Source: a virus
IMG/VR virus record: IMGVR_UViG_3300025120_000445
Coordinates: 1 to 27,023 of that record
Strand: one strand, 5' to 3'
DNA: 27,023 bases
The notes below the pieces were generated by a model. It did no database searches, was not told the origin of the DNA, and saw nothing but the letters and a program-made list of their open reading frames with translations. Both the position numbers and the translations under genes were made by a program. Below, piece by piece: positions 25,205 to 27,023 of the stretch (its first letter is position 1; each line of letters begins with the position of its first letter).

Positions 25205-25891
25205 ATGAGGAGAGCCTACGATTGGCTCACTGAGAAGACCTCCCGTGTCCTAGTCATAGGTGACCTTCATTGTCCCTTTGACCTAGATGGCTACCTAGAG
25301 CATTGTCAAGATATCTACTCTCGGCACAACTGCAATCGAGTAGTATTCATTGGGGACATCATAGACAATCACTACTCTTCCTACCATGAGACCGACCCCG
25401 ATGGGTTCGGAGGTGGTGAGGAGTTAGAGAGAGCCATCTACCATGTGGCCCGCTGGAGCGAGGCTTTCCCTCACGCTGATGTATTGATAGGAAACCATGA
25501 CCGCATCATCATGAGAAAGGCTTTCAGCTCTGCAATCCCAAAGGCATGGGTCAAGTCATACAATGAAGTCCTAGGCACTAACTGGAATTGGGTTGAACAA
25601 CTGGTGATAGATGGAGTCCAATACGTCCATGGGGAAGGTGGGACCGCACGAACCAAGGCAAAGAATGACATGATGTCCACCGTTCAAGGCCACATCCACA
25701 CCGCTTGCTATGTTGATTGGATGGTAGGTAGGAACTTCCGAATCTTTGGAATGCAAGTAGGATGCGGCATCGACCACGATGCTTATGCTTCTGCCTACGC
25801 ACGACACTACAAGAAGCAAGCGATAGGGTGTGGAGTTGTAATTGATGGGGCGGTCGCTATCAACTGCCTTATGACTCTTGGATCGAAATGA
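25205..25891 (+). CDS. Metallophosphoesterase (calcineurin-like)
   Basis: The product has 228 residues from ATG 25205; an in-frame TTG at 25163 would add 14 residues and overlap the endolysin stop. All metal motifs are present: GDLHCP with D20 and H22, GDIIDNH (50-56), GNHD (96-99), H142 in VHGEGG, and GHIH (162-165). The fold hydrolyses phosphomono- or diesters, and the substrate here is unknown. From memory, enzymes of this type are common in Bacteroidota phages near lysis genes; roles in nucleic acid repair or cell-signal turnover are possible. The stop overlaps the next start by four bases. Confidence 0.85.
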   Translation: MRRAYDWLTEKTSRVLVIGDLHCPFDLDGYLEHCQDIYSRHNCNRVVFIGDIIDNHYSSYHETDPDGFGGGEELERAIYHVARWSEAFPHADVLIGNHDRIIMRKAFSSAIPKAWVKSYNEVLGTNWNWVEQLVIDGVQYVHGEGGTARTKAKNDMMSTVQGHIHTACYVDWMVGRNFRIFGMQVGCGIDHDAYASAYARHYKKQAIGCGVVIDGAVAINCLMTLGSK

Positions 25892-26115
25892 AAAAGCCCA
25901 ACCCCCTACTCAACATCCTTGGCAAGTTGGACTTGACTGAAGTCTTCAAGAGCAAAGGAAACCTGAAGCGATGGAGTGCGAAGCGAACCATTGGAGGGAC
26001 AATAGTCATCTACGCTCTGACTAGCATGAATGGCGAGATAGAACCCCTTGGGGTTTTGCTTTGCTTCATAGGCATACTTCCCTTGTGCCTAAGTTTCTTT
26101 GAAGAGAAAAGTTGA
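25888..26115 (+). CDS. Two-span membrane protein, holin candidate
   Basis: The product has 75 residues from ATG 25888, sharing ATGA with the phosphoesterase stop. After a basic, amphipathic N-terminus (NPLLNILGKLDLTEVFKSKG, RWSAKRTIGG) it has two likely membrane segments, TIVIYALTSMNG and LGVLLCFIGILPLCLSFF, with a charged end (EEKS). Size, topology and place in the lysis block suit a holin. From memory, similar proteins ending LPLCLSFFE are common but unnamed in Bacteroidota phages. It is the last gene of the late operon. Confidence 0.7.
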   Translation: MKKPNPLLNILGKLDLTEVFKSKGNLKRWSAKRTIGGTIVIYALTSMNGEIEPLGVLLCFIGILPLCLSFFEEKS

Positions 26116-26153
26116 CTATCTTAGTCGAGCCACTAGGCGACACAGGTAGAGCC

Positions 26154-26181
26154 TGAGAGTTGGAACGCCAACCCAGTCTCA
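26154..26181 (+). other. Bulged hairpin in the intergenic RNA
   Basis: TGAGA-GTTGG (26154-26163) pairs fully with CCAAC (26168-26172) and TCTCA (26177-26181) around the four-base loop AACG, with CCAG bulged on the 3' side. Ten base pairs without mismatch are unlikely to be chance. No T run follows, so it is not a terminator. Confidence 0.6.
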
Positions 26182-26196
26182 TTTCAATTCAGCAGA

Positions 26197-26274
26197 TGGG
26201 GCAATGGTGTACTTCAAGCCATGCAAGCAAACGCACTGCCAATGATGTAGCTAGGTTCGATTCCTAGCCCCCAA
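26197..26274 (+). other. tRNA-like element, degenerate
   Basis: A perfect T-arm is present: CTAGG-TTCGATT-CCTAG (26251-26267), with the canonical TTCRANY loop. About 55 bases upstream lies TGGGGC (26197-26202), nearly matching GCCCCCA after the T-arm. ATGG/CCAT (26204-26222) resembles a D-arm. A proper anticodon arm is missing: only GCA/TGC pairs, no U33 is found, and the D-loop lacks GG. It is either a decayed tRNA or a mimic. I do not call a functional tRNA. Confidence 0.4.
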
Positions 26275-26340
26275 CAACATGGGTGATGTCCTACCATCAA
26301 GGGTGGTCTACTTGACGGGCTAGTTTCATAGTGTTTTTAG

Positions 26341-26374
26341 GTAGCGGCTCTCACAAGGGGTCGCTACTTTTTTT
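26341..26374 (+). terminator. Strong intrinsic terminator at the end of the late region
   Basis: GTAGCG (26341-26346) pairs perfectly with CGCTAC (26362-26367) around a 15-base loop, followed at once by seven T (26368-26374). It separates late/lysis transcription from the early promoter just downstream. Confidence 0.88.
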
Positions 26375-26395
26375 GAATAAATCTTGGGGTTTCTC

Positions 26396-26424
26396 TTGGA
26401 TTATTACAATTCGTTTGTACATTG
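26396..26424 (+). promoter_or_regulatory. Early promoter of Bacteroidota type (TTG-N19-TACATTG)
   Basis: TTG at 26396-26398 and TACATTG at 26418-26424 are 19 bases apart, close to the Bacteroidota consensus with a -33 TTG and a -7 TAnnTTTG. It lies just after a terminator and before the early gene set, exactly where an early promoter read by the host sigma factor should be. The transcript would begin near 26430, favouring ATG 26451 as first start. Confidence 0.6.
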
Positions 26425-26450
26425 CGCCTATGAAACACAATTCAAACACT

Positions 26451-26861
26451 ATGAACTATTCAATCAAATCAGTCAAATTCTTTGACACGCGCGATGGCGG
26501 TGGCTTCAACTGCTCGCTCTTTCAGAATGGCAAGAAGGTTGCCTACGTCTACGACGAGGGTCGAGGGGGAAGCCTCTTCTACGATTGTCTCAATGCTTGG
26601 GACTTTGGTAGCTACACCTTTGACGAGGTCATCTACAAACTCATTGACGAGCATCGTCAGAAGAAGGAGGAGAAGAAGGGCATCTTGGTCAAGAGAGAGT
26701 TTGGATATGCTATCCTTGAATGGAGAGTGACTATCCCTACGCTTCTCAAGAAGTATAGCAATGGCCTAGAGGCAATTCAAAAGGAGTACGACAAGACTAT
26801 CAAGGGAGGACAAGAGGTACTCAACAAGGGATACCTTGCAAGCATTGGAGTAAACGTATAA
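26451..26861 (+). CDS. Hypothetical early protein, first gene after the early promoter
   Basis: The product has 136 residues from ATG 26451 (MNYSIKSVKFFDTRDGGGFN). An in-frame ATG at 26430 would fall at or near the transcription start and is less likely. The N-terminal half is a small beta domain (FDTRDGGGFNCSLFQNGKKV, YVYDEGRGGSLFYDCL). From memory this TRDGGGF pattern occurs in a widespread, unnamed phage family. The second half is helical and Lys/Glu-rich (DEHRQKKEEKKGILVKREFG). As the first early gene it may act on the host or on early regulation, but nothing shows how. Confidence 0.75.
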   Translation: MNYSIKSVKFFDTRDGGGFNCSLFQNGKKVAYVYDEGRGGSLFYDCLNAWDFGSYTFDEVIYKLIDEHRQKKEEKKGILVKREFGYAILEWRVTIPTLLKKYSNGLEAIQKEYDKTIKGGQEVLNKGYLASIGVNV

Positions 26862-26872
26862 CCTGAAGAACC

Positions 26873-27016
26873 ATGGAACGCTATACATTTTTATCTCAAA
26901 GGTTGTCAGCTAAGACAATCACCGACTCTGAGAAGAAGGAACTATTTGCTTTGGCATTTGGTGAGGACTTTATGGCGAGTGAGGACAAGGGCGCAAAGAA
27001 GACTTACGAAGTATAA
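26873..27016 (+). CDS. Complete copy of the split small early gene (47 residues)
   Basis: It starts at ATG 26873, eleven bases after the previous stop, and ends at TAA 27014-27016. The protein (MERYTFLSQRLSAKTITDSE...) is charged and helical with the segment KKELFALAFGEDFM. No family recognised. Most of it lies in the terminal repeat, so its 3' end is duplicated at 1-120. On the circle it is followed by the G8 hairpin at 127-154. Confidence 0.75.
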   Translation: MERYTFLSQRLSAKTITDSEKKELFALAFGEDFMASEDKGAKKTYEV

Positions 27017-27023
27017 CCCATAG
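26897..27023. repeat. Terminal direct repeat, right copy
   Basis: Identical to 1-127 over its whole length. See the left copy: joining the two ends closes a circle of 26,896 bp. Confidence 0.95.

Follow-up and report, generated by a model that had tools for sequence, protein, structure and literature searches.

Gene context and boundaries of the region

The DNA analysed (the window) is a phage genome of 27,023 nt, IMG/VR record IMGVR_UViG_3300025120_000445; all features are given on its plus strand. Its two ends (1-127 and 26897-27023) form an exact 127-nt repeat and a second contig, L082, spans their joint. The record, classed as linear in the collection, thus probably represents a complete circular map of 26,896 bp. 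The region of interest, 26116-26374, is located between the gene for a 75-aa membrane protein (25888-26115) and an early gene with an ATG at 26430 or, in frame, at 26451 and its stop at 26861. No credible gene was found in 26116-26430, in agreement with the preliminary description, in which the region was called gene-free. The upstream genes encode a peptidase M15 domain protein, a metallophosphoesterase and the 75-aa protein. Among named phages, those of Nonlabens, Cellulophaga, Tenacibaculum and Flavobacterium (11b) carry the nearest relatives of the metallophosphoesterase, which suggests that the host probably belongs to the Flavobacteriia.

The 75-aa protein has no match in Pfam or PHROG. 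It is characterised by an invariant RWSxKRTIGG motif and a C-terminal hydrophobic stretch, and is perhaps a component of the lysis cassette. Its gene sits after the endolysin-like and metallophosphoesterase genes in the window and before the metallophosphoesterase gene in other relatives. For comparison, about 160 loci were assembled by scanning IMG/VR with two queries, the metallophosphoesterase and an alignment built on the 75-aa protein.

Bacteroidota promoters follow the consensus TTTG/TANNTTTG (PMC6847099). A box resembling the −7 element, TATCTTAG, is present at 26117-26124, separated by a single base from the stop codon (26113-26115) of the 75-aa gene. This box is a good match and the −33 element is weak, with a TTTG only 15 nt upstream; if the promoter is active, transcription would start near 26129-26131. 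Among the 18 listed relatives in which a non-coding region of this class follows the 75-aa gene, 17 have a TANNTT box that begins 0-3 nt past the stop codon, the exception being L123; the order in relatives is box, terminator, early gene. The strong terminator noticed earlier was recovered as a predicted intrinsic terminator with a T7 tail at 26339-26374 (−18.3 kcal/mol, z −7.4), and terminators were predicted throughout the set of relatives.

Downstream of the terminator, the early gene has a −7-box-like sequence of its own, TACATTGC (26418-26425), with a TTGG about 19 nt upstream and similar spacing in L004 and L084. This early promoter-like site and the 21-nt leader behind it, ATGAAACACAATTCAAACACT (together within 26418-26453 in the window), are conserved in L004/L087 and L084. 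Behind them L004 and the window have different genes, which gives the impression that the cassette stays in place and the genes are swapped. In L128 (920-1160) the stretch from the 75-aa gene to the early gene apparently holds two cassettes in tandem, each with its own TATCTTAG box, hairpin and terminator.

Conserved hairpins and alternative folds

The bulged hairpin pointed out in the preliminary description is located at 26149-26180 and was designated P2. It consists of an outer GAG/CTC stem, a CTG/CAG stem, an AGA/C internal loop, a GTTGG/CCAAC stem and an AACG loop. A second hairpin, P3 (26305-26321, GGTCT-ACTTGAC-GGGCT), is rich in wobble pairs in the window. Covariation in relatives, chosen beforehand as the test of the structure, was positive for both hairpins, while the T-arm-like hairpin of the window had no homologue in these genomes. 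For P2, two-sided changes were seen in five of the eight core pairs with all 32 cells paired, and for P3 in four of the five pairs with all 25 cells paired; these are small counts from five sequences, two of them near-identical, and the compensations are direct. The covariation score of P2 was matched by none of 500 shuffles. Its lower stem occurs as CTG/CAG, TAG/CTA and GGA/TCC and its upper stem as GTTGG/CCAAC, GTTAG/CTAAC and GTCAG/CTGAC, with the AGA/C internal loop and the AACG loop constant while the stems vary. The stem of P3 is found as GGTCT/AGACC, GACTC/GAGTC and GACCC/GGGTC. A third hairpin at the 5′ side, P1, was considered and dropped, its pairing being inconsistent between relatives.

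The version of the RNA with P2 and P3 is carried by just five to six genomes in the data at hand, and the RNA bodies differ widely among relatives, from roughly 60 to 250 nt. A pattern search for P2 gave, outside the orthologous positions, three apparently unrelated places (L165, L166 and L168), two of them probably coding, and a search for P3 gave no members beyond those already known. The one additional, partial member from these searches was L123, with P3 only. Screening of the window and the loci of eight relatives against Rfam gave no match at the gathering score. Conservation of the region relative to coding sequence ranked in the top 10% with L004 and was average with L084; given this unevenness, it was left out as evidence.

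Minimum free energy (MFE) folding of the window replaces P2 and P3, with or without the T-arm block, by a long-range pairing of the 5′ strand of P2 with the 3′ side of P3. The fold with both hairpins forced lies only about 5.6 kcal/mol above this MFE, and the rearrangement is not the MFE structure in L084, L004 or L132. The covariation supports the local hairpins over the long-range pairing.

The switch put forward in the preliminary description, in which CTAGCCC (26264) would leave the T-arm to pair with GGGCTAG (26317), was not supported. The complementary letters are present, but the predicted probability of the pairing is 0.00 and it lies about 7 kcal/mol above the MFE. Conservation lends it no support either: the partner is missing in relatives, and their counterpart of GGGCTAG reads GGACTTAG or AGACCAAG and serves P3. 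This result bears on the possibility that the region is a cis-acting leader which controls read-through of the terminator into the early genes, as an attenuator or as an antiterminator of the put type of phage HK022. The put RNA of HK022 forms hairpins that come after a phage promoter and before the early genes. The structured RNA seen here likewise lies in front of early genes, flanked by a promoter-like box and a terminator. Three points make such a leader improbable. In the window, L004 and L084 the early gene has a well-spaced promoter-like site of its own beyond the terminator; there was no sign of a conserved antiterminator pairing that involves the terminator stem; and the proposed switch pairing is not predicted to form.

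Somewhat more credible, yet still unlikely, is that the region acts mainly as the 3′ UTR of the late or lysis operon, where P2 and P3 would protect or process the end of the late mRNA, the terminator would isolate the early genes and any small RNA would be a by-product. This is what L123 resembles: from 4225 onward, P3, the linker and the terminator come directly after the stop codon, with neither the promoter box nor P2, and these elements may there form a 3′ UTR. In addition, AACG-loop hairpins double as terminators in L102, L106, L120, L124, L126 and L128. Against a role confined to the 3′ UTR stand the −7 box at the stop codon in all but one of the 18 comparable loci and the pairing of P2, which is conserved in the window, L084 and L130 although no T-run trails it in these genomes.

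The terminator hairpins of the six genomes with such AACG-loop terminators are located 3′ of the 75-aa gene and resemble P2, each having a 5-bp stem that carries the loop and stands on a small internal loop. P2 may be derived from a hairpin of this type.

Taken with its promoter-like box, its terminator and the absence of an Rfam match, the compensatory changes in relatives support the earlier suggestion of a new phage noncoding RNA. By this comparative evidence, the locus appears to encode a real, conserved and structured phage RNA at the junction of late and early genes.

The 82-nt block and its tRNA-like T-arm

The preliminary description overlooked that the block with the T-arm is an insertion with respect to the closest relatives. 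In the closest two, L084 and L004/L087, the same intergenic region lacks this block (26196-26277, 82 nt), which is the size of a tRNA. At the junction in L084, TTCAGCAG directly abuts CATGGGTGATG; aligned, TTTAATTCAGCAG is followed at once by CATGGGTGATGTCC in L084, and in the window TTTCAATTCAGCAG and CATGGGTGATGTCC are separated by the 82 nt. Presence of the block in the window and its absence from both relatives point to a clean insertion in the lineage of the window, the alternative of two losses being less parsimonious. An assembly error is unlikely, because the insert is also present in L082, which differs from the window by 1 mismatch in 6584 nt. An origin of the insert by tandem duplication of neighbouring sequence was considered and was not significant (136 of 500 shuffles).

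Near its 3′ end the insert holds the T-arm-like hairpin GCTAGG-TTCGATT-CCTAGC (26250-26268), as perfect as had been claimed: a canonical T-loop, GGTTCGATTCC (26254-26264), lies within a 6-bp stem with predicted pair probabilities of 0.99-1.0. Over 21 nt, CTAGGTTCGATTCCTAGCCCC (26251-26271), the sequence is identical to the 3′ ends of tRNA genes, mostly tRNA-Gln and also tRNA-Met, from unrelated bacteria and phages. The resemblance is limited to the last ~25 nt of the insert. Its 5′ 55 nt show no similarity to those tRNA-Gln and tRNA-Met genes, and neither the phage collection nor IMG/VR gave a convincing match to the part upstream of the T-arm; among phages, plasmids and genomes searched for an origin of the insert, just the T-arm part matched, to tRNA 3′ ends.

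The insert is not a working tRNA. The near-matching acceptor stem of the preliminary description exists as five pairs, TGGGG/CCCCA, which have a probability of 0 inside the full RNA. When folded alone, the insert adopts a cloverleaf, with a fold z of just −0.8. As in the families tRNA (RF00005) and tRNA-Sec (RF01852), it has a T-arm with the canonical T-loop, a 5-bp closing stem and the 21 nt of tRNA 3′ ends. Unlike these, it pairs five acceptor positions instead of seven and three anticodon-stem positions instead of five, with a mismatched stem, carries A at position 33 in place of U33, has no D-loop GG and no CCA, and falls far below the family thresholds. RF00005 gave nothing even at E<=10, and the best Rfam score was 15.9 bits for RF01852 against a gathering score of 47. 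With ARAGORN no tRNA was found at the normal threshold. The relaxed search that had been recommended at the outset did return a match, equally common in shuffles keeping the T-arm. An intact, split or intron-containing tRNA was rejected on this basis, none of the normal, relaxed, intron and mitochondrial settings performing better than shuffles. No tRNA genes were found in the genome of the window or in the relatives searched.

The earlier alternatives of a tRNA mimic or a decayed tRNA are thus at best possible, and for the insert only: the T-arm and the tRNA size speak for them, the lack of a match at the thresholds of ARAGORN and Rfam against. The evidence nevertheless leans slightly towards a tRNA origin, either by decay of a tRNA gene or as a tRNA-like domain that was retained because of its T-arm. 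The T-arm occupies the position expected in a tRNA, and, given this T-arm, a 5-bp closing stem from the 5′ end of the insert arose in 1.5% of shuffles and the full cloverleaf MFE in 0.55%; these two frequencies make the tRNA origin somewhat likelier than otherwise. It has to be set against this that the 5′ portion is without any match and unlike the tRNAs in question, that relaxed ARAGORN matches are no rarer in T-arm-keeping shuffles, that the decoding and 3′-end signatures are lacking, that relatives have no tRNA and that the fold of the insert is hardly more stable than expected.

The T-arm could instead be a hairpin formed by chance, the insertion around it having some other origin; this explanation has somewhat less than even odds. 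T-arm-like hairpins appeared in 14% of shuffles of the whole window, and the remainder of the insert has no similarity to tRNA. When the region itself was shuffled the frequency was just 0.14%, and the hairpin sits in an insertion that has the length of a tRNA and is closed by five base pairs. It is very improbable that the insert is an attP-like remnant in which a tRNA 3′ end is kept as integration site. As in many att cores, the match is confined to the tRNA 3′ end (T-arm and acceptor strand); yet the overlapping ends indicate a complete genome in which Phage_integrase (PF00589) and Resolvase (PF00239) domains are absent, Phage_integrase was not found in five relatives, and 84,980 species genomes contain no exact 25-nt match.

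Complementarity to the early start codon and proposed role

Between P3 and the terminator lies a U-rich linker, TTTCATAGTGTTTTT (26324-26338), a proposed antisense seed. Within it, UUCAUAGUGUUU is perfectly complementary to AAACACUAUGAA over the start codon of the early gene, the proposed target being AAACACTATGAA (26444-26455), across the ATG at 26451. Twelve nucleotides of the linker, TTCATAGTGTTT (26325-26336), form a perfect inverted repeat with 26444-26455, their sole perfect match besides themselves. The duplex of linker and target in the window has an energy of −18.9 kcal/mol. Start-codon complementarity of 12-13 bp was significant against shuffles in the window (p 0.008), L084 (p 0.002) and L004 (p 0.006). 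A different, still complementary pair of linker and target is present in L139 (p 0.012), and the complementarity is marginal in L097 and L129. By duplex energy against shuffles it was not significant in L088, L128, L130, L132, L123, L102, L106 and L122, and pairs of a linker with its own leader were not consistently the best when set against the leaders of other genomes. The duplex energies support, and do not establish, that the linker plausibly acts antisense on the first early mRNA. Alternatively the inverted repeat could be a DNA operator, a reading that would also fit a region serving mainly as 3′ UTR.

The explanation preferred here, tentatively and at a little under even confidence, is a phage small RNA bounded by promoter and terminator, plausibly antisense to the first early mRNA, with a lineage-specific, possibly tRNA-derived insert. 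Transcription would begin at a promoter of its own where the lysis cassette ends; the RNA would fold into P2 and P3, end at the intrinsic terminator just before the early promoter and accumulate as a discrete small RNA, whose U-rich linker would pair around the start codon of the first early mRNA and so damp its translation. The T-arm would have arrived with the insertion, which is more likely than not a tRNA-like sequence, captured or decayed, that plays no part in decoding; relatives do without it. This small RNA is favoured because of the compensatory changes in P2 and P3, the recurrent −7 box, the terminators throughout and the complementarity to the start codon. The MFE fold of the window, which displaces P2 and P3, the poor −33 element, the eight relatives without significant complementarity, L123 with neither box nor P2, and the few genomes concerned are points against it. 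That the small RNA acquired a tRNA-derived domain of T-arm and acceptor that recruits host tRNA enzymes, such as RNase P or those of T-loop modification, for processing or stability is a far more speculative extension, and very unlikely.

Phage regulatory RNAs with their own promoter and terminator are known, for example OOP and aQ of phage lambda (review PMC12197685). The candidate shares with this class a short phage RNA with a promoter-like box, an intrinsic terminator and complementarity to a phage mRNA. It differs in that it lies on the same strand as its proposed target and would act through a short seed instead of a full antisense overlap, and in that it is predicted for a flavobacterial phage. 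In a word search of the same review neither 'Bacteroid' nor 'tRNA' was mentioned, which suggests that small RNAs of Bacteroidota phages are little described. The locus provides a covariation-supported candidate at a fixed position between lysis and early genes, with a testable target at a start codon. Such a target matters in hosts without Shine-Dalgarno sequences (PMC6847099). The tRNA-like insert of this lineage furthermore offers a small natural experiment on the acquisition of modules by such RNAs and, if it is truly a captured tRNA domain, would represent a regulatory RNA with a tRNA module.
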